Origin: Kosakonia quasisacchari
GTDB taxonomy: Bacteria; Pseudomonadota; Gammaproteobacteria; Enterobacterales; Enterobacteriaceae
Direction: 5' to 3'
Assembly: GCF_004331415.1 (NCBI RefSeq)
Contig: NZ_SJOP01000009.1
Span: 124,001 to 188,000, forward strand
Length of the DNA: 64,000 bases
Below the pieces are notes generated by a model. It saw only the letters and a program-made list of their open reading frames with translations. It did no database searches and was not told the DNA's origin. Below, in pieces: positions 8,167-58,285 of this stretch. The position numbers and the translations under genes are program-made. Each line of letters starts with the position of its first letter. Position 1 is the stretch's first letter.

Positions 8167-8613
8167 ATGAGCGACACTCCTTTCTGGCAAAGCAAAACCC
8201 TCGACCAAATGACGGACGCGGAGTGGGAGTCGCTGTGTGACGGCTGCGGGCAGTGCTGCCTGCATAAACTGATGGATGAAGACACTGACGAAATCTATTT
8301 CACCAATGTCGCCTGTCGCCAGCTAAACATAAAAACCTGCCAGTGCCGCAACTATGAACGCCGCTTCGAATATGAGCCGGACTGCATCAAGCTGACCCGC
8401 GAAAATCTCCCCACTTTCGAATGGCTGCCGCCAAGCTGTGCTTATCGTCTGCTGGCGGAAGGAAAGGCATTGCCGCTGTGGCATCCGCTGCGCACAGGCT
8501 CAAAAGCCGCCATGCATGCTGAACGTATTTCGGTACGCCACATTGCAGTGAAAGAGTCAGAAGTTCGCGACTGGCAGGAGCATATCCTTAATAAGCCTGA
8601 ATGGGCGGACTAA
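8167..8613 (+). CDS. ycgN: UPF0260 protein YcgN, Cys-rich
   Basis: A 148-residue cytoplasmic protein of the UPF0260 / YkgJ-like cysteine cluster family. Cysteines in [22 protein letters not shown] and at two later positions form the conserved cluster, which is likely to bind metal or an iron-sulfur centre. No function is established. E. coli YcgN is a few residues longer at the N-terminus. The 3' end overlaps a convergent membrane-protein gene by 26 bases. Confidence 0.92.
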
Positions 8614-49157: not shown

Positions 49158-49535
49158 ATGAATTTATTAACACACAGCAATCAGGGTGGCGGTGAATTTA
49201 CGTTTGTCGTATCGCGAAGTAATGCAAAAGCCGACGATAAAGTTCACGCCCTCGCTGCCCGAAAAACGCGTGAGCTGGAGATGACGCTCATTGATTTTCA
49301 CCTTGAATCGTCGGAAATGCTGGAAGTGGACGGTTATCCCGCTGTGGAACTCTTCTACCAGTTCAAAAATGACAACCACGTTATCTTCCAACGCCAAACG
49401 TTAATTTTGCTCGACGATCTCGCCGGAAAAAAAATGGTGAGCTACGTGGGTACCTGCCCTGGCGAATTCAGTGAAGAAAATCAAAAGCAATATCAACAAA
49501 TCATCCAGAGTATTAAATTTCATCGTGCAAAATAG
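49158..49535 (+). CDS. DUF1795 (Eag/DcrB-like) T6SS chaperone
   Basis: A 125-residue cytoplasmic protein of the DUF1795 family. The pattern FTFVVSRSNAKADDKVHAL then LEVDGYPAVELFYQF and the Gln-rich C-terminus (QKQYQQIIQSIKF) fits Eag chaperones, which bind N-terminal membrane segments of effectors and load them onto VgrG. It stands 60 bases upstream of vgrG in its own small unit. No effector with an obvious Eag-bound transmembrane region or Rhs repeats is visible nearby, so its client is unclear. Confidence 0.8.
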   Translation: MNLLTHSNQGGGEFTFVVSRSNAKADDKVHALAARKTRELEMTLIDFHLESSEMLEVDGYPAVELFYQFKNDNHVIFQRQTLILLDDLAGKKMVSYVGTCPGEFSEENQKQYQQIIQSIKFHRAK

Positions 49536-49595: not shown

Positions 49596-51851
49596 ATGCA
49601 GAACAGAATCACGGCGACGTTACCCGTTGAGGGCTTACTTTTCTGGAAACTTACCGGGCGCGAAGCGCTGTCGGAGTCATTTACGCTGGCGCTGACGGTA
49701 CTGGGCACCGATGCGCGCGCAGACCGCAGCAAGTTGCTGGGTCAATCCGTAACGGTTAATATTCCGACCCAGGGAATGGGAACGCGTCATATCAATGGCA
49801 AAATCACCCGCGTGGCGGTGAGCGCCGTGGAGCTTTCGGGTACCCGTTACGCGGTGTATCAGCTCACTGTGGAGCCGGATCTGTGGCCGATGAAACGCGA
49901 CCGCAACCTGCGTATCTTCCAGGGCCAGACTGCGCCGCAGATTGTGAAAACGCTGCTCGGCGAATATCAGGTGAACGTGGAAGATAAGCTGACCGGTAGC
50001 TACCGCACGTGGGATTACTGCGTGCAGTACCAGGAATCGAGCCTCGATTTCATCAGCCGCCTGATGGAACTTGAAGGTATCGCCTACCATTTCCGCCACG
50101 AAGCCGACCGCCATGTGCTGGTGCTGACCGACGCGGCGACCGAACATCAGCCCTTCAGCGGGTATGAAACCATTCCGTACCACCAGACGCCGTCGGGCGG
50201 CAGCACCGATGAAGAGGGCATCAGCCAGTGGGCGCTGGAGGACAGCGTGACGCCGGGCATTTACAGTCTGGATGATTACGATTTTCGCAAACCCAACGCC
50301 TGGCTGTTCCAGGCGCGGCAGAACCCCGCATCACCGCAGCCGGGCAGCATCGATGTTTACGACTGGCCGGGGCGTTTTGTCGAGCACGGTCACGGTGAGT
50401 ATTACGCGCGTATCCGCCAGGAGCGCTGGCAGGTGGAGCATCAGCAGATTCAGGGCACCGCCACGGCGATTGGCGTTGCCCCGGGGAACACCTTTTCGCT
50501 GTATAACGCACCGTTTTTCAGTGATAACGGCGAGTACCTGACCACCGAAGCGAACTACTTTTTCGAGGAAAACCGCTACGCCAGCGGTTCCGATGGCGAA
50601 ACTATTCACCGCATCGATTTCACCGTCATTCCGTCGTCGGTGGTGTTCCGCCCGGCAGCGGTGACGGCGTGGCCGAAAACCTACGGTCCGCAGACGGCAA
50701 AAGTGGTCGGCCCGCAGGGCGAGAGTATCTGGACGGATAAATATGGCCGGGTGAAGGTGAAATTCCACTGGGACCGGCTGGCAAAAGGCGATGACACCAG
50801 CTCCTGCTGGGTGCGTGTGTCGAGTGCCTGGGCGGGGCAGGGCTTCGGCGGGGTGCAAATCCCGCGCGTGGGCGACGAAGTGGTGATCGACTTTATCAAC
50901 GGCGACCCGGACAGACCAATCGTCACCGGACGCGTCTATAACGAATCCAGCATGCCGCCGTGGTCACTGCCGGGTGACTCAACGCGCATGGGCTTCATGA
51001 CCCGCAGCAAAGACGGCAGTAAAGACAACGCCAGCTACCTGTTTTTTGAGGATCGCGCCGGAAGCGAAGCTGTCGAGTTGCATTCCGAAAAAGATATGAA
51101 AGTCTCGGTGGAAAATGACAAGACGGTCAACATTGATGGCAATCGCACGACGACCATTCTGAAAGAGCAGAAAGACGATGTCACCGGCGACGCCTCGTTC
51201 CACTATCGTGCGAAGCGCACGACCACGGTAGATGAAGCGGAAACCACCACCTTCAACAACAGCCAGACGGAAACTATCAAGAATGGGCGTACGCTGAATA
51301 TCACCAGCGGCGGTGATATTGTTAATATTAAAGGTGATCGTATTATCGATATTGACGGCACGAATTTGCATCATGTTACTAAACTAGTTACGGAGAAATT
51401 TGATCAGGGACAGGAAACAACCATTGTTGCGGGGGGGAAGAGGGAAACGATCAGCGGTGATGTTAACGTTAATATTAAAGGCGACTGGACTCAAATAATT
51501 GAGTCAGGGAAAACGTTTATATCAAGTCCAAACGAAATAACTATAAAAAGTGACAAGAAAATTAGCATAGAGTCTCCATCCAATTGGGTGAAAACCTCTG
51601 TACATTCTTTTTCAATTACAGGATTTAATGAAAGCATAACAGGTAATAATGTATCTTTAACTGGTAATTCAATAGGCACGACAGGCATGGGGTCATCGCT
51701 GACGGCAGTTAGTTATGGTAGTACTGCATTAAGTATGAGTCGAACATTAGTTAGCTATTCAGTAAAGACAATAGATAATAAAAGGTCGCTTACGAAAATT
51801 GAAAACTCTGTCCAAAATTTAGTTATTAGTGCAATTCATTTATTTATATGA
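49596..51851 (+). CDS. vgrG: T6SS spike protein VgrG (TssI)
   Basis: A 751-residue spike. The gp27-like part spans about 1-370 and the gp5-like OB-fold about 380-460 (VKVKFHWDRLAKGDD, SSAWAGQGFGGVQIPRVGDEV split by a short gap). It is followed by the triple beta-helix with regular valine/glycine repeats. From about codon 590 the DNA turns AT-rich, and the tail consists of SITG/SLTG-like repeats with a final unlike segment ending SAIHLFI. I see no enzyme domain in the tail; it probably serves to bind a tip or effector. It overlaps or abuts the next small gene. Confidence 0.96.
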   Translation: MQNRITATLPVEGLLFWKLTGREALSESFTLALTVLGTDARADRSKLLGQSVTVNIPTQGMGTRHINGKITRVAVSAVELSGTRYAVYQLTVEPDLWPMKRDRNLRIFQGQTAPQIVKTLLGEYQVNVEDKLTGSYRTWDYCVQYQESSLDFISRLMELEGIAYHFRHEADRHVLVLTDAATEHQPFSGYETIPYHQTPSGGSTDEEGISQWALEDSVTPGIYSLDDYDFRKPNAWLFQARQNPASPQPGSIDVYDWPGRFVEHGHGEYYARIRQERWQVEHQQIQGTATAIGVAPGNTFSLYNAPFFSDNGEYLTTEANYFFEENRYASGSDGETIHRIDFTVIPSSVVFRPAAVTAWPKTYGPQTAKVVGPQGESIWTDKYGRVKVKFHWDRLAKGDDTSSCWVRVSSAWAGQGFGGVQIPRVGDEVVIDFINGDPDRPIVTGRVYNESSMPPWSLPGDSTRMGFMTRSKDGSKDNASYLFFEDRAGSEAVELHSEKDMKVSVENDKTVNIDGNRTTTILKEQKDDVTGDASFHYRAKRTTTVDEAETTTFNNSQTETIKNGRTLNITSGGDIVNIKGDRIIDIDGTNLHHVTKLVTEKFDQGQETTIVAGGKRETISGDVNVNIKGDWTQIIESGKTFISSPNEITIKSDKKISIESPSNWVKTSVHSFSITGFNESITGNNVSLTGNSIGTTGMGSSLTAVSYGSTALSMSRTLVSYSVKTIDNKRSLTKIENSVQNLVISAIHLFI

Positions 51852-51859
51852 AGGTGAAT

Positions 51860-52240
51860 ATGAGTGCTTTTACAGAAACTCCCTTAATAATCGGCGTTAT
51901 CGTATCTATCCTGGGGATTATACTGGCCTTTTCAACATTAAAGCCGAATAAAGATGAAGTTACCACTCTGCGTGACTGGTCATCCAGAGAAAAGTGGAGT
52001 GGTCAAATTATTGAGACGTCACTTGAATCATGGCATCAAACAGATACCAAGTACGGCAATGATTTTTTATACGATTTTACTTTTACGGCTACTATTAATG
52101 ACACAAGGAAAAAATATGTCGCAAAAGGTCTGGTTAGACCTAATGAGATACATAAGATTCAGAAAGGTTTAACTCTAATAATAAAATATAATGCTGATAA
52201 TCCACCACGTATAGCTGTGATGGCTATCGATTATAAATAA
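51860..52240 (+). CDS. Small membrane-anchored protein, array member 1 (family B)
   Basis: A 126-residue protein with one N-terminal membrane helix (about 8-27) and a beta-rich domain with KYGNDFLYDFTFTA, a KGL segment and RIAVMAIDYK at the end. It resembles members 7 and 8 of this array (54823 and 55216). ATG 51860 has AAGG 5 bases ahead; ATG 51848 overlaps the vgrG stop and is the alternative. Placement directly after vgrG suggests immunity or an adaptor. I do not recognise a named family with certainty. Confidence 0.7.
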   Translation: MSAFTETPLIIGVIVSILGIILAFSTLKPNKDEVTTLRDWSSREKWSGQIIETSLESWHQTDTKYGNDFLYDFTFTATINDTRKKYVAKGLVRPNEIHKIQKGLTLIIKYNADNPPRIAVMAIDYK

Positions 52241-52389
52241 AACCTATGCCGCTTTTTTCAAACGATGAATAAAGATAGTTTTGAATTGGTATCATATGCA
52301 TATAATTTCCTTTGTTATTACATTTTAGCTAGTTGAAATTATTCATTTAAAGCCATCTTATCGATAAATATAAATCTTAAGAGGTCATA

Positions 52390-52749
52390 ATGTTCACTGG
52401 CGATAATGTTGGCCTGATATTAAGCATTGTAACGCCATGCTTCCTTATTTATTTGGTATTCCATACAGGGATGGCTCATGATGATTTTAAAAAGAACGGT
52501 ATAAGGACAGTTGCTAAGATAAATAATATCAAGCAAATATCCACTTCAGGTACTGGTTCGCCAAAATGTGTCTTTACGCTTTCTTTTACTACGCAAGATG
52601 GTCAAGATATAAGTCTGGAAAAAACACAAGTTGTTACTGTGTTAGATATGATGCCTCTCGAGCGAGAGCGCAAAGTGGATATTTACTACAAGAAAGAAAA
52701 TCCTAAAAAAATATGGCTGATACTTGAATCAGAAAGTCGGATAAAGTAA
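52390..52749 (+). CDS. Small membrane-anchored protein, array member 2 (family A)
   Basis: A 119-residue protein: N-terminal helix (about 8-26), then HDDFKKNGIRTVAKI, SGTGS and a beta-rich domain ending YYKKENPKKIWLIL. It is clearly related to members 3 and 4 (shared DxFKKxGIRTxAKI and SGTG), but its C-terminal half has diverged. The layout resembles DUF3592-like proteins, an uncertain match. The ribosome site AAGAGG precedes the ATG. Confidence 0.7.
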   Translation: MFTGDNVGLILSIVTPCFLIYLVFHTGMAHDDFKKNGIRTVAKINNIKQISTSGTGSPKCVFTLSFTTQDGQDISLEKTQVVTVLDMMPLERERKVDIYYKKENPKKIWLILESESRIK

Positions 52750-52821
52750 TTAAATATATGGCTTAATCTAGACGTTGTCATCGGCAACGTCTTACTCTTT
52801 TATCGTGCTTAGTGCACAGCT

Positions 52822-52938
52822 ATGGTAGTTGAGGCAGAAACCAACACCGTCAAAAACAGCCAGATGAAAATCATTAAAAATGGATGTGCGCTGAATATTA
52901 CCTACTGTGGTGTAACTATTTCTAAATTAAGAATTTAA
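52822..52938 (+). pseudogene. Decayed vgrG 3' fragment inside the array
   Basis: A 38-codon frame whose first 27 residues match the VgrG segment encoded at 51225-51305 at 17 of 27 positions (VEAET, KNSQ, IIKNG and LNIT blocks), with close DNA likeness as well. After LNIT the match ends. It has no ribosome site of note. I read it as the remains of an older vgrG 3' end left between array members 2 and 3. Confidence 0.75.
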
Positions 52939-52973
52939 ATCCATATATTACAGTTCTTATATAAGGTTAATCG

Positions 52974-53321
52974 ATGTCAGATTCATCAATGTGGTCTATT
53001 GTGATCATTGTATTGGTTATAGCCTGGCTTATTTATGGGATTATGAAATCCGGTTATGATGATGACAGGTTTAGAGCTAAGGGCATTAAAGTAGAGGCAA
53101 GGATTATTGATAAGAAAAATATCGGTGTGTCCGGTACGGGTAATGTTAAATTTAAAGTAAAAGTGGAATTTGAAACAACAGATGGTATCGTCAGTGCACA
53201 GGCTAAAAGGTATTTTACACCTGAGGACTTGATCAAGGTAATGAGGAAAAACACTGTGCTGCTATTTTATCTGCCAGAAAATCCTCAACAGATTTATTTG
53301 GTCCCTCAAGATATGGAATAA
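52974..53321 (+). CDS. Small membrane-anchored protein, array member 3 (family A)
   Basis: A 115-residue protein: N-terminal helix (about 7-24), DDDRFRAKGIKVEARI, SGTGN, then KRYFTPEDLIKVMRKNT and FYLPENPQQIYLV. It is highly similar to member 4 over the whole length. Basic residues follow the helix, which suggests a cytoplasmic C-terminal domain. The function is unknown; tandem copies after vgrG suit immunity. Confidence 0.72.
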   Translation: MSDSSMWSIVIIVLVIAWLIYGIMKSGYDDDRFRAKGIKVEARIIDKKNIGVSGTGNVKFKVKVEFETTDGIVSAQAKRYFTPEDLIKVMRKNTVLLFYLPENPQQIYLVPQDME

Positions 53322-53479
53322 CTATTATTGTAAATGGTGAATCGAATTGGTTAGTTGCAAAGATAATCCTGGTTGGCTTTTTTTGAAGGTCGGAGGCTGT
53401 AAAAATAACGGTTTTTCAGTAAGTGCAATCGTTTTTGACTGTGAAAAATATAAATTATATTCTTTTAATTATTTAAATC

Positions 53480-53839
53480 ATGGCAGCTATCGTGTTTGAC
53501 TCTCCTGTTTTTACCATCTCAATTATTTTTATTGTCTGCATTGGCATCCTTTTATTCTGTTACCATACAGGTGTTGTTCACGATAAATTTAAAAAAGAAG
53601 GAGTTAGAACAGAAGCGAAAATTTTAAGTAAGGAGAAAATTGGCGCATCGGGCACGGGAAATACTCGATTTCGCATGGTTGTCGAGTTTACAACTAAAAA
53701 TGAAACTGTAACCGTTACAACTAAAAGATTTTTTACGCCTGAGGATTTAATAAAAATCATGAGGAACAACACTGTTGTGCTTTACTATCTCCCTCAGGAT
53801 CCTCAACAAGTACTTCTTATGCCGGGCGAAATGGAATAA
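53480..53839 (+). CDS. Small membrane-anchored protein, array member 4 (family A)
   Basis: A 119-residue paralogue of member 3: N-terminal helix (about 10-28), HDKFKKEGVRTEAKI, SGTGN, KRFFTPEDLIKIMRNNT and YYLPQDPQQVLLM. The paired genes diverge mostly in the first 30 residues. The ribosome site is weak, so the start at 53480 is probable but not firm. Confidence 0.7.
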   Translation: MAAIVFDSPVFTISIIFIVCIGILLFCYHTGVVHDKFKKEGVRTEAKILSKEKIGASGTGNTRFRMVVEFTTKNETVTVTTKRFFTPEDLIKIMRNNTVVLYYLPQDPQQVLLMPGEME

Positions 53840-53861
53840 GTTAACTGGCTTTTTTTGAGCG

Positions 53862-54317
53862 GTGCGTGACTGGTTATACTATCGGGTTGCATTTCAAAAA
53901 AAATTCAAAGCGTTAATAACAACTATACGGCATGATAAAAAGGTCCAAATGGCAATTTCTTATTTTGTTACTTATCCCTTGCTGGTTGTCTTTTTTGGTA
54001 TGTTTGTTTTCTTCGTCTATAACATCATCATGGCTGGTAGAGGGTCGGTTAAAATTGACCCGACTGATGCGGGGCAGGCGCAGGGCGAGATTGTTAACAT
54101 TCGTAGTTCCAGTGGCGAGAATTCCGCTTTTATCAATGTGAACATTCAGGTGCGGTTTATTACCGCTGATCATAAAATCGTTAACACTGAAGGGAAGGCG
54201 GTTATTGATGCGGTTAAGGTTACAGAATATCAAAAAGGAACAAAGGTGCCTCTGACTTACTCAAAGAAAGAACCTAAGAAAATAAAGATTAATATCCCAT
54301 CCTCACTGGATAAATAA
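53862..54317 (+). CDS. Small membrane-anchored protein, array member 5
   Basis: A 151-residue protein with a basic N-terminus (residues 1-30), one membrane helix (about 33-55) and a domain with GEIVNIRSSSGENSAF, RFITADHKI and LTYSKKEPKKIKI. The end resembles family A member 2 (KKENPKKIWL). Charge distribution suggests the domain lies in the periplasm, opposite to members 3 and 4. The start is GTG 53862 with a poor ribosome site; a later start is possible. Confidence 0.6.
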   Translation: MRDWLYYRVAFQKKFKALITTIRHDKKVQMAISYFVTYPLLVVFFGMFVFFVYNIIMAGRGSVKIDPTDAGQAQGEIVNIRSSSGENSAFINVNIQVRFITADHKIVNTEGKAVIDAVKVTEYQKGTKVPLTYSKKEPKKIKINIPSSLDK

Positions 54318-54486
54318 TTCTCTATAAATAAAGATGACTATTTCTGATAAGCCTTGAATTTTAAGCAATTAACTTTTCATTACGCATTTTTTAAACCGCC
54401 AACAAAAAATATAATGAGCATCTCTTACTCTTCCGGTCCCATTAATGGTTTTCGATATAGATATTTTGCATAATGAGGTAATTCCC

Positions 54487-54804
54487 ATGGAGGCTCTTCT
54501 TGTTATCGCACTTGTTGGTGGGTTCGTTTTATATATAGGCAGGCAATGTTATTTAGCGTATCAGACAGATCAGCGCGGCAGGCTGCTTAATGCGAAGATT
54601 TTGAGCATGTGCGCTACCGGTTCGAATGACGGCAGCAGCACCAACGTTGTCTATGAACTGGCGGTGGATTTCGATGGTGTCCAGCGAATAATCAAAGGTA
54701 CGGATGCCGTTAATACTTTCTGCTCTTATCAGTTAGAGCCCGGCAAAGAAATACAAATAAAGTATCTCGACGATAAAAATATCTTATTTCAGTACCGAAA
54801 ATAG
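54487..54804 (+). CDS. Small membrane-anchored protein, array member 6
   Basis: A 105-residue protein: N-terminal helix (about 2-20), RGRLLNAKILSM, a Gly/Ser/Asp loop and a beta domain ending GKEIQIKYLDDKNILFQY. The layout matches family A, but identity is low. ATG 54487 has GAGGT 8 bases ahead; the upstream in-frame ATG at 54445 lacks one. Confidence 0.65.
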   Translation: MEALLVIALVGGFVLYIGRQCYLAYQTDQRGRLLNAKILSMCATGSNDGSSTNVVYELAVDFDGVQRIIKGTDAVNTFCSYQLEPGKEIQIKYLDDKNILFQYRK

Positions 54805-54822
54805 TGCATCAGGAATACCGTA

Positions 54823-55194
54823 ATGGAGCTTGAATATTACTCGAAATATTTTATGTATGGCGGTATTGCAGTGTCCGTCATAGCCACTCTGTTTTTTTAT
54901 TTTCTGTCCAGAATGGAGAGTAAGAAAAAAGCAGATATTGGTATCTTTCTGACTTGCCATCTTTGGCCGGGAGATATTGTCGAAAGCAAAATTATTTCCT
55001 GCAAAATCACAGACGATCGGTTTGGTAATGACTTCTTTTATGATATTCGCTTTCACCTGCCGGGTGATAATAAACTCTACACTGCTAAAACACTGGTGAA
55101 TATTTCTCAGATGTCATTGATTCGTCCAGGACTGCGGATGAAAGTGAAGAAAGGAAACGAAGGCCGTTTAGCGGTCATTAAAATCGAGTTCTAG
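54823..55194 (+). CDS. Small membrane-anchored protein, array member 7 (family B)
   Basis: A 123-residue protein: N-terminal helix (about 10-30), then GDIVESKIISCKITDDRFG, NDFFYDIRF, a TAKTLVNISQ segment and RPGLRMKVK with LAVIKIEF at the end. The GNDFxYD and final AVxxI elements match member 1. It starts 18 bases after member 6. Confidence 0.68.
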   Translation: MELEYYSKYFMYGGIAVSVIATLFFYFLSRMESKKKADIGIFLTCHLWPGDIVESKIISCKITDDRFGNDFFYDIRFHLPGDNKLYTAKTLVNISQMSLIRPGLRMKVKKGNEGRLAVIKIEF

Positions 55195-55215
55195 CGAAAT
55201 AAGGCACTGCCAGTA

Positions 55216-55638
55216 ATGATGGAATTAATTGCTAAATACTCAACGCTCTTTTCATGGTGTGTATTGGCCCTTTTTCTTTATCTCACCGTTAAAGGCCTGC
55301 GCGAACCAACCGGCAACGCAAAACTCATTAAAGATTGTGCTACTCAGCGTGACTGGTATGGCCCGGAAAAAGAGGCCGTACTTGAATCATGGTCGCCGCT
55401 GAAATCCACCCGCAAAGGGGAATATTTTATTTTCCATTTCACCATAGTTATCGACCGGCAAACACAACATAAAAAAGCAGCGGCGCTGCTGAAAACAAAA
55501 GAGATTGATCGATTAAAACAAGGCCTCAAGCTGCGGGTGAAATATCAGGGGTTAGCGGCGAAAAGAATTGCAGTCGCTGACATGATTTTCGATGAAGTTA
55601 TAAATCAATTACCTGATATTTCTGGCACTTCTGTTTAA
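55216..55638 (+). CDS. Small membrane-anchored protein, array member 8 (family B)
   Basis: A 140-residue protein: N-terminal helix (about 8-27), QRDWYGPEKEAVLESW, a FHFTIVIDRQ strand region, KQGLKLRVKY and KRIAVADMIF. It shares LESW, KxGL and RIAV elements with member 1. Codon use is closer to the GC-rich neighbours than that of members 1-5. It is the last of the array before the DUF2169 operon, 106 bases away. Confidence 0.68.
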   Translation: MMELIAKYSTLFSWCVLALFLYLTVKGLREPTGNAKLIKDCATQRDWYGPEKEAVLESWSPLKSTRKGEYFIFHFTIVIDRQTQHKKAAALLKTKEIDRLKQGLKLRVKYQGLAAKRIAVADMIFDEVINQLPDISGTSV

Positions 55639-55744: not shown

Positions 55745-58285
55745 ATGAAGATTATTAAACCGCTGCGGCTGAGCGTGCTTAATCGCCCATTTCGCCTGCA
55801 GGGGCAAAATCACCTGGGTGTTTCTGTTCTTGCGCTGCTGGATATGAGCGCGCAACCAAAATTACGTCCTGAAGTCGAGTTGTGGCAACTGGCCGCCAGT
55901 GAGTTGCAAACCAGCGGCGGTGTGCTGGATATGGCAATGCCGAAAGCGCGCGCCGAATTCCTCGCTACCGGCTTCGCTTACTCGCACCATCATCAGGATA
56001 AAACCGCTTGTGCGGTACGCATTGAAATCGGCGAACTCAGTAAAACGCTGGCCGTCACTGGTGATCGCTACTGGGCCGGTTCACGCCCGACCGCCGCCAA
56101 ACCTTTTGAACAGATGCGTCTCGACTGGAGCCGTGCTTTCGGTGGCGAAGGTTTTGAGGAAAACCCGCACGGTATCGGTGCGGTGGAAGAAAACCATAAC
56201 GGCACCCGGTTCCGTCGCCTGCCAAATATTGAACTCTTAAATCAGCGTGTCACGTCTCCGCGCGCAAAACCTGAACCAGCCTGTTTCGGCCCGCTGGATC
56301 TTCTCTGGCCTCGCCGCTTTCGCCGGATGGGCAAAAACTATGATGCCCACTGGTTACAGCATGATTTCCCCGGCTTCGCGCCCGATATCGACTGGCGGGT
56401 ATTTAACGCCGCCAGCCCCGATCAGTGGTGGGAAGAGCGAGATGCGCTTCCGCCGCAGGCTGCATGGCGCATCTGGAATATGCACCCGGAGCAGCATTTG
56501 CAGGAAGGAACACTGCCGCCGTGGCAGGCGCGATGCTTTATGCAGCGCCAGCGCGGCGATGAGATCCTGTTTGAAGAGATAGCGCTGCGCGCCACCACGG
56601 TGTGGTTTTTTCCGCACCTTGAGCAGATGGTGCTTATCTGGCAGGGCAATCAACGTATTAATGAAGACGATGCCGCAGACGTTTTGCAACTGATGCCCGC
56701 GCTGGAAAAAATCGGTGCTGCCCGCTCGGTCAACCACTATCGCAAAGTGCTCCATCAGCGGCTGGATAAAGAGAAAGGCGCGCTGTTTGCGTTCCGTGAA
56801 AAAGATCTGCTACCTGAAGATGTTATTGGCCCGTGGATCGACAGCGAGGTGCAGGAAAACCACAGCCCGATGCGCGATAACCAGCAAAACCGCGCCATGC
56901 AGCTGCGTGAGCAGCATCGCGCGCGGCTGGAAGCACAGGGCGCGGACACCGCCGATCTGCTCCAGGAGATGGAGGAACCCGCGCTTCCAAAACTGGAAGA
57001 TTTGCCTGAGTTTATCGAAGAGATGGAGCGCAAAGCCCAACACATGCAGGCGCAGGCCGAAACACGCAAAGCAGAGATGGAGGCGCGTTTCCCGCAGATG
57101 AATGCGCAGGAAAATCAGCCGCGCGGGCCTGAGTCGATGATGCGCATGCAGGATTTACTCGAGCGCAACGCCGACAACATGAGTGAGAAAAAGCTAAAGC
57201 AGAGCCGGGAAGCGCTGCACAAACTCTATCTGATGTCTGCCGCCGAACAACCACCTGCCATCAAACTGACTGGCGATATCGCGCTGATTATTCGCCAGCG
57301 TGCCGAAAGAACGATGGCGCAGGGCGGGGATTTCAGCGGGCTGGATTTGACCGGCGCGGATTTCTCCGGCATGGATTTGCGCGGAGCCAATTTCCGTAAT
57401 GCGCTACTGGAGTGTGCCAACCTCAGTCAGTGCCAGCTTGATGGCGCTGATTTCAGCCACGCGATGCTGGCACGTACGGATTTACAGGGCGCTTCGTTTC
57501 GTGAATGCAACTTCACCGAAGCAAGCCTCGCGCTGGCGCAGTGCCGTCAGACGAATTTCACCGGCGCGCAGTTTAAAGAATCTGAAATGACCGACGCGCT
57601 GTTTGACGCGTGTGATTTCAGCCATGCGCGGCTGGAAAACCTGCTGCTGCGTAAAACCGGCTTTAGCCAGTGCATATTCCGTCACGCGACGCTGGATAAT
57701 TGTGTGTTTATGGAACTTACGCTGCCGCAACCTGACTTCAGCGCGGCAAAAATGAATAAAAGCAGTTTTATCCAGTGTGAACTGCAAAGCGCCTCTTTTG
57801 CCGGAGCGTACCTGGACGGCTGTTCCTGGGTAGAGAGTCGGCTGGAGCGAGCCCTGTTTCGTGACGCCACGCTTATCACCTGCGCGGTGGCATCTGGTGG
57901 CACGCTGTGCGGTGCAGATTTCAGCGGTGCGCAGCTTAAGCAGAGTAATTTACGCCAGGCGGTACTGACGGACGCTCATTTCGTTCGTGCGAAGCTGGAT
58001 AACAGCGATCTCAGCGAGGCGCAATGCGAAGGGGCGGATTTTAGCGGCGCGACGCTAACCGGCAGCCTGTTTATGCGTACCGATTTTCGGCGTGTGCGTT
58101 TTACCGACGCCAATTTAATGGGTGCGATGATGCAAAAATGCCGTCTCGAAGGCGCCGATCTCAGTTTCAGTAATCTATTCCGCGCCGATCTTTCCCAGTC
58201 GATAGCGGACAGCGCCACGAAATTTGAGGGTGCCTATAACAAACGCGTGAAAACCCTGCCGAAGCGCGACGGGGAGGTGATATGA
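55745..58285 (+). CDS. DUF2169 protein fused to pentapeptide repeats
   Basis: An 846-residue cytoplasmic protein. The N-terminal DUF2169 domain (about 1-310, with SRAFGGEGFEENPHGIG and FGPLDLLWPRRF) is found in T6SS effector loading factors near VgrG and PAAR-like genes. A charged coiled-coil linker (about 380-500) follows. The C-terminus (about 510-835) is made of pentapeptide repeats A(D/N)(L/F)xx forming a square beta-helix. The AAAGGATG site precedes ATG 55745. It overlaps the next pentapeptide gene by 4 bases. Confidence 0.85.
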   Translation: MKIIKPLRLSVLNRPFRLQGQNHLGVSVLALLDMSAQPKLRPEVELWQLAASELQTSGGVLDMAMPKARAEFLATGFAYSHHHQDKTACAVRIEIGELSKTLAVTGDRYWAGSRPTAAKPFEQMRLDWSRAFGGEGFEENPHGIGAVEENHNGTRFRRLPNIELLNQRVTSPRAKPEPACFGPLDLLWPRRFRRMGKNYDAHWLQHDFPGFAPDIDWRVFNAASPDQWWEERDALPPQAAWRIWNMHPEQHLQEGTLPPWQARCFMQRQRGDEILFEEIALRATTVWFFPHLEQMVLIWQGNQRINEDDAADVLQLMPALEKIGAARSVNHYRKVLHQRLDKEKGALFAFREKDLLPEDVIGPWIDSEVQENHSPMRDNQQNRAMQLREQHRARLEAQGADTADLLQEMEEPALPKLEDLPEFIEEMERKAQHMQAQAETRKAEMEARFPQMNAQENQPRGPESMMRMQDLLERNADNMSEKKLKQSREALHKLYLMSAAEQPPAIKLTGDIALIIRQRAERTMAQGGDFSGLDLTGADFSGMDLRGANFRNALLECANLSQCQLDGADFSHAMLARTDLQGASFRECNFTEASLALAQCRQTNFTGAQFKESEMTDALFDACDFSHARLENLLLRKTGFSQCIFRHATLDNCVFMELTLPQPDFSAAKMNKSSFIQCELQSASFAGAYLDGCSWVESRLERALFRDATLITCAVASGGTLCGADFSGAQLKQSNLRQAVLTDAHFVRAKLDNSDLSEAQCEGADFSGATLTGSLFMRTDFRRVRFTDANLMGAMMQKCRLEGADLSFSNLFRADLSQSIADSATKFEGAYNKRVKTLPKRDGEVI

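Follow-up and report, generated by a model that had tools for sequence, protein, structure and literature searches.

Arrays of immunity genes produced by sequential displacement of T6SS effectors have been described in V. cholerae (Kirchberger et al. 2017, PMC5361080). C-terminal displacement has also been reported for the rhs genes of Enterobacteriaceae, together with a circle-insertion model of how it takes place (Jackson et al. 2009, PMC2935791). In bee gut Orbaceae, vgrG is said to diversify by exchange of its C-terminal coding parts, and displacement is named in that account (PMC8125069), and in agrobacteria the vgrG genes are presented as recombination hot spots, with orphan immunity genes inferred from such recombination (PMC8546570). 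We analyzed an array of small genes behind a vgrG gene of Kosakonia quasisacchari in which a short stretch related to vgrG, here called the ghost, lies between the second and third members. From sequence comparison we conclude, with a probability of roughly 85%, that the ghost is a remnant of an older vgrG and that the array grew by C-terminal displacement, with orphan immunity-type genes retained along the way.

The window, meaning the whole stretch of 64,000 nucleotides that was analyzed, lies in a T6SS gene cluster of a 5.15-Mb genome, and the closest named relatives for the locus are Kosakonia. All features discussed here are on the + strand. Behind the vgrG gene (49596-51851, 751 codons) stand eight small genes, m1 to m8, with a DUF2169-type gene at 55745 after them. 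This last gene (55745-58285), also a pentapeptide-repeat gene and one that we take to be DUF2169, was the fixed downstream border in all array comparisons. Upstream of vgrG is a DcrB-family gene (49158-49535; Pfam PF08786, E 1.3e-15). The DcrB family includes Eag-type chaperones. The resident VgrG has the gp27/gp5-like core domains of a VgrG/TssI protein, with Pfam and TIGR03361 matches above cut-off. On the basis of Pfam and of the amino acid identity of relatives, its conserved core (Phage_GPD, Phage_base_V and Gp5_trimer_C) was placed at 49596-51314, and the variable tail, of a type that we call T1, at 51315-51851 with the stop included, on the basis of its divergence from the tails of relatives. 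The same genome holds more vgrG-like genes (G000:C37, C73, C30 and C38), with 69-80% DNA identity over the matched parts.

The first small gene, m1 (51848-52240), overlaps the vgrG stop and is the presumed cognate immunity gene of T1. We regard the remaining seven as orphan immunity-type genes. For m1 and m2 (52390-52749, found behind m1 in three species) the assignment comes from the positions of homologues, for m3 (52974-53321) from homologues and a structure model, and for m4 (53480-53839) from homologues and a match to DUF3592 below the cut-off. For m5 (53952-54317), m6 (54490-54804), m7 (54823-55194) and m8 (55216-55638) it comes from homologues that stand as first genes elsewhere. None of m1-m8 reached a curated cut-off in the Pfam and NCBIfam scans. 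The DUF3592 match of m4 scored 21.4 bits, under the Pfam gathering cut-off of 25.3, and that of m2 scored 12.5 bits; m4 is possibly related to DUF3592, but we did not file it as a member. Among the papers searched, none mentioned DUF3592 together with type VI secretion.

The ghost was delimited by alignment. Positions 52770-52930 aligned to resident vgrG positions 51173-51331 with a score of 104, whereas 2000 dinucleotide shuffles of the 223-bp intergenic region gave a mean of 20.9 and a maximum of 33. Ghost and resident vgrG were 74.4% identical over a gap-free block of 117 bp. The preliminary description of this DNA had singled out the frame 52822-52938 as the ghost of a vgrG 3' end, matching the part of vgrG at 51225-51305 (residues 544-570 of VgrG) in 17 of 27 residues, and this count was exact. 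The homology extends upstream of the ATG at 52822, however, and crosses an in-frame TAG at 52810, so that this ATG is not the original start. In the other direction the match stops at the vgrG core/tail boundary (codon ~573), about where the residents of relatives begin to differ. Because it ends where resident tails diverge, the ghost, which covers roughly codons 526-573, is the end of the conserved vgrG core with the old tail missing. The proposed origin from vgrG thus held, but the piece corresponds to the end of the core only and not to the end of the whole gene, the tail being lost.

A chance match was rejected on the alignment score and on the absence of vgrG pieces from three shuffled sets of arrays, described below. 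At the start of the ghost (52770-52792) a short inverted repeat is followed by a T-rich run, giving a terminator-like appearance. Terminator-like sites in the region numbered 2, compared with 2.9 expected in shuffles, and the one at 52770-52792 may be there by chance.

We examined whether selection acts on the ghost by comparing the window with K. pseudosacchari. Between the two ghosts we counted 24 differences, 18 nonsynonymous and 6 synonymous, with flat change over codon positions, and it is on these that the dN/dS of 0.81 rests. For the same genome pair, m2 and m3 each gave a dN/dS of 0.19 (Fisher P 0.017 for the contrast with the ghost). Values for m1-m5, m7 and m8, with m6 not included, ranged from 0.12 to 0.28 in 12 comparisons, where m1 is represented by very few changes and one m8 value by saturated synonymous sites. 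The in-frame TAG and the near-neutral change mark the ghost as a pseudogene piece, and it is decaying while most of its neighbours are kept. An ATG and an open frame do exist here in the window and in K. pseudosacchari alike, as would be the case for a small expressed gene of 38-40 codons derived from vgrG sequence. We consider such a gene highly improbable, and a conserved small ORF was rejected, in view of a dN/dS of 0.8 that is flat over codon positions, C-terminal ends that differ between the genomes, and the lack of an ATG in the corresponding stretch of a third Kosakonia genome (G011, locus L019). By alignment and dN/dS, the 38-codon frame at 52822-52938 is part of the ghost and not a conserved gene. 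Neither of the two outcomes named in the preliminary description as refuting its reading, a match no better than shuffled sequence and a conserved ORF, was obtained.

The resident gene itself is divided into a constant and a changing part. Up to codon 573, the amino acid identity of the core to the residents of G009 and G011, two other genomes of the genus, was 98%. The last 111 residues, which belong to the T1 tail, shared only 16-34% with the residents of five relatives (29% with G009 and 16% with G011). A conserved 5' core with strongly diverged 3' ends among close relatives is one of the features by which displacement is recognized. The T1 tail begins as a repetitive, needle-like extension. 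A structure model of the last 175 residues of VgrG had pLDDT values below 50 across the final 88 and is unreliable there. Judged by eye, nearly all of the tail types among 37 VgrGs compared end in a short hydrophobic stretch.

We then looked at the same place in the relatives. Among 15 Kosakonia genomes, counting that of the window, 8 matched the m2-m4 stretch. K. pseudosacchari (G007; L017/L033) carries m2, ghost and m3 in the order of the window. G011 carries m2 with an early stop, then the same core start in shortened form, and then another gene. The join of m2 to the vgrG core is at the same place in the window, in K. pseudosacchari (L033) and in G011 (L019). A different arrangement was found in G009 (L018), where m3, m4, m5, an m6-like gene (28%), part of m7, and m8 stand behind a different tail. 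That tail's own first gene precedes m3, and there is no m1, m2 or ghost. The similarity of G009 to the m2-m4 stretch begins at the ghost's 3' edge (52928) and takes in part of an m3 leader (52928-52973) that, judged by eye, possibly consists of the last codons of the lost tail and a spacer.

These arrangements bear on the order of events that had been proposed for the array, in which a past vgrG tail was followed by members 3 onward and a new vgrG tail with members 1-2 was later placed in front. The second step is supported by the shared m2/core join and by G009, which has neither m1 and m2 nor the ghost. For the first step, the older vgrG was borne out, but m3 was not seen as the first gene after a vgrG tail in any locus examined. 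Strains in which members 3-8 directly follow a vgrG tail had been suggested as a check; G009 does have m3-m5 and m8 behind a tail, with the reservation that the first gene belonging to that tail intervenes.

The relatives also carry traces of a later step. In G007 and G011 the resident vgrG has another tail, followed by other small genes and then by the last ~41 bp of the T1 tail directly before m1 and m2. In G011 m1 is full-length and 98% identical, and in G007 it is cut to 28 residues. Since T1 is attached in the window and is present as a displaced remnant before m1 in these two relatives, as displacement predicts, the window represents the state before, and G007 and G011 the state after, one further displacement. 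K. pseudosacchari has two copies of m3 (L033:5310-5657 and 8207-8554), of which one follows the ghost and the other lies near the front together with m4; this suggests the import of a multi-gene block.

Identity values were also considered with respect to duplication. The ghost has the same orientation as the resident vgrG and comes from the same gene, and it is as close to the residents of the window, G009 and G011 (74.4%) as to any resident compared, all of which would be seen if it were an old partial tandem duplication of the resident gene, made by slippage or unequal crossing-over, with no displaced vgrG involved. Such a duplication must indeed be old, because in the same block the window's resident shares 96.6% identity with those of G009 and G011, and a recent duplication of the resident gene was rejected on this comparison. 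More distant Kosakonia residents (L023, L025, L071, L073 and L074) are only 75-86% identical, nearly as diverged as the ghost, and identity alone therefore leaves room for an old duplication. It speaks against a duplication that the ghost lies precisely where two blocks of genes meet, each of which is found without the other elsewhere, and that other genomes have displaced pieces, of other tail types, which are mostly followed by the matching gene. We judge it quite unlikely, and favor displacement of an older vgrG.

To see how common such pieces are, we surveyed 40 arrays of at least 150 bp that lie behind a vgrG match of at least 350 residues. Seven further loci (L020, L059, L079, L080, L104, L107 and L2122) have no long vgrG and are outside the 40. 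Pieces of vgrG (E<=1e-4) were present in 8 of the 40 arrays, all on the + strand, and in none of the three shuffled sets. Core pieces were found in the window, L019 and L033, and pieces that were wholly or mostly tail in L023, L076, L081 and L084; the piece in L062 belongs to a resident gene that is itself broken, and is no ghost. Downstream pieces of the vgrG 3' end, displaced but in the orientation of the gene itself, are thus found as well, as displacement would leave them. In L062, which is from Serratia rubidaea (L062:2693-5521), the vgrG frame is interrupted between core and tail; behind its T1-like tail end comes an m1-like gene that is broken as well.

One locus holds whole displaced units. 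In G013 (L021 and L022; G013:C1:2728000-2762000), orphan units of core, tail and gene, with different tail types, are stacked behind a broken front vgrG. This stack looks like an earlier stage of the state of the window. We compared the gene behind each of 13 tail ends outside intact long vgrG genes, which were picked by hand and have no shuffled control, with the type predicted by the best-matching tail, and it ranked first out of 37 in 8 of the 13. For the displaced tail ends alone, leaving out the front-most ones (L020, L059, L062 and one G013 end), 5 of 9 ranked first. Another G013 end ranked second, and that of L033 ranked third, with a truncated m1 that is adjacent and 96% identical. In the remaining three (L023, L062 and L084), the next gene was not of the type predicted by the tail end.

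Tails and first genes were compared in loci running from vgrG to DUF2169, which we gathered from the genus, from the family and from named genomes. The first gene was defined as one of at least 80 codons with its start -8 to +18 bp from the vgrG stop; of the 38 loci in which vgrG and DUF2169 lie 250 bp or more apart, 37 have one. Left out were L040, which has no adjacent first gene, L062, in which vgrG is broken, and arrays under 250 bp. The similarity of the last 110 VgrG residues correlated with that of the first gene (Mantel r 0.76, P 2e-4, 37 loci), as expected for an effector and immunity gene in which tail and adjacent gene are inherited together. With core similarity controlled, the partial correlation was 0.76, while core and gene given the tail gave -0.08; the relatedness of species is controlled in this test only through core similarity. 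At E<1e-8, 240 of 666 locus pairs had similar tails, 120 had similar first genes and 90 had both. The tie between tail and first gene is strong but not strict, since only 90 of the 240 pairs with similar tails share similar genes (90 of 120 in the reverse direction).

For every one of m1-m8, a homologue occurs at some other locus as the first gene after a vgrG tail, whether attached or orphan. Homologues of m1 follow T1-like tails in L081 and L083 (51%), one of m2 follows another tail in L076 (50%), and those of m5 follow vgrG tails in L025 and L074 (62-66%). For m3, the nearest first genes are of the m4 type (42-51%). First genes homologous to m4 are found in L055, G013 and G014 (68-73%), although the vgrG genes of G013 and G014 are broken or short. 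Those homologous to m6 are in L019 and, after an orphan tail, in G013 (30-33%), to m7 in L018, L070, L072 and L073 (47-53%), and to m8 in L093 and L094 (30-31%). We found no DNA similar to 51330-55240 in the E. coli collection, and no relative of m3 in the plasmid collection.

Arrays are not present everywhere. In the Xenorhabdus loci (L034-L051, L053, L056 and L063), 22-333 bp separate vgrG from DUF2169 and there is no array. The tails of 11 of these 21 loci are distantly T1-like (30-40%), and their 22-140 bp to DUF2169 leave no room for such a gene. A homologue of any first gene was absent from 24 loci, namely the 21 of Xenorhabdus and 3 from metagenome assemblies. In view of the Xenorhabdus loci without such genes, a tail of the T1 kind is not always paired and need not be a toxin everywhere.

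The co-variation of tail and first gene would be expected from partnership alone, and the small genes could accordingly be chaperones or anchors needed for each tail type, with the array as a reserve of partners. This seems improbable to us, if less so than a duplication, for three reasons. The genes m2-m8 (m6 not measured) are beside no attached tail and are nonetheless under purifying selection, which is unexpected for a chaperone without a client; 11 Xenorhabdus loci lack such a gene despite their similar tails; and the model of m3 combines a beta domain with a single long helix at the N-terminus, and that helix suits a membrane immunity protein. Searched against PDB with Foldseek, this model had only weak hits, none at E<=0.001 and many of them to OB folds.

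Together these data suggest the following course of displacement. The ancestral locus would have had the order core, old tail, m3, m4 and so on. An incoming module may have recombined into the core, bringing core sequence, T1 as the new tail, m1 as its partner and m2 as a passenger. T1 would thereby have taken the attached position, and the end of the old core would have been shifted downstream behind m2, along with the old tail and its partner gene. The old tail would then have been deleted and the core piece would have decayed, while the partner genes were held under purifying selection. We infer that m3 was the partner of the old tail, which is itself gone. The attached tail and first downstream gene would be a putative effector/immunity pair, and the array a set of immunity genes stacked by successive displacements, likely of use as protection against neighbours still firing the old tails. 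Circle insertion (the rhs model, PMC2935791) and homology-facilitated illegitimate recombination (PMC5361080) both fit the end products, which are all that is visible.

The ends of the locus are near-identical between species and the arrays differ, a pattern that would also follow if the whole array, ghost included, had been imported by homologous recombination between the vgrG core and DUF2169, with the displacement having occurred in a donor lineage. The part of the V. cholerae report available describes this route there (PMC5361080). Import relocates the displacement but does not remove it, and the join common to three species fits inheritance or transfer alike. We regard import as the most plausible of the alternatives but still unlikely, and retain growth by displacement in either event.

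The large screen outlined in the available part of an effector report (PMC11148199) kept only VgrGs of >796 aa with a non-needle extension of >=120 aa and removed needle-like ones. The resident VgrG, with 751 aa and a needle-like tail start, falls outside this definition of a specialised (evolved) VgrG, and a T1-like tail, being short and with a needle-like start, would not enter that screen. We tentatively propose, at somewhat less than even odds, that the short needle-tip extension of ordinary-length VgrGs, generally regarded as structural, is itself a polymorphic effector against bacteria, acting on the membrane of the target through its hydrophobic end and neutralised by small membrane proteins outside curated families. 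If this is true, the class would have escaped notice, since short needle-like VgrG tails are discarded in effector screens. The tail/partner pairs are unnamed by Pfam and NCBIfam and would be skipped by a length-based effector screen, and a direct test of toxicity and protection now becomes possible.

A literature search, mostly at the level of titles, found no published description of this Kosakonia array. The array provides a stepwise record of the growth of an immunity-type array behind an enterobacterial VgrG, from G009 through the window to the two relatives, with joins that can be read to some tens of bases. Its closest counterpart is in V. cholerae, where, according to the portion of the report available (PMC5361080), the vgrG 3' end is replaced by an effector-immunity module, the old immunity gene is kept and shifted downstream, and one old effector 3' end has likewise been shifted back. 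The Kosakonia remnant differs from what is described there in that it is the end of the core with the tail lost, in the needle-type start of the tail, and in partners that fall below family cut-offs. The rhs loci, as far as the available text of that report goes (PMC2935791), similarly have a constant core, exchangeable tips, and strings of dissociated tips with core fragments. In Kosakonia the gene is a VgrG, and what survives in the ghost is core sequence without a tip. For rhs, attached and displaced cores are reported to be identical, an observation on young events, compared with 74% identity here, and we did not take identity of cores as defining. The available portions of the Orbaceae (PMC8125069) and agrobacteria (PMC8546570) reports show no core remnant between orphan immunity genes of the kind seen in Kosakonia. 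Salmonella SAIDI-1, from what is accessible of its description (PMC7400221), is also a row of orphan T6SS/CDI immunity genes with an Rhs-related pseudogene nearby, but it is a T6SS/CDI mosaic at another locus and not behind a resident vgrG. The preliminary description had offered displacement as the mechanism of array growth, which agrees with our reading, and had set it, here in a VgrG, beside the displacement known for Rhs/CDI toxins. Displacement in a VgrG is not new, given the V. cholerae account (PMC5361080) as far as that is available and its naming for vgrG in bee symbionts (PMC8125069). The displacement process is therefore already known, and the Kosakonia array is a clear new case of it, the less ordinary point being a short tail with a needle-like start.
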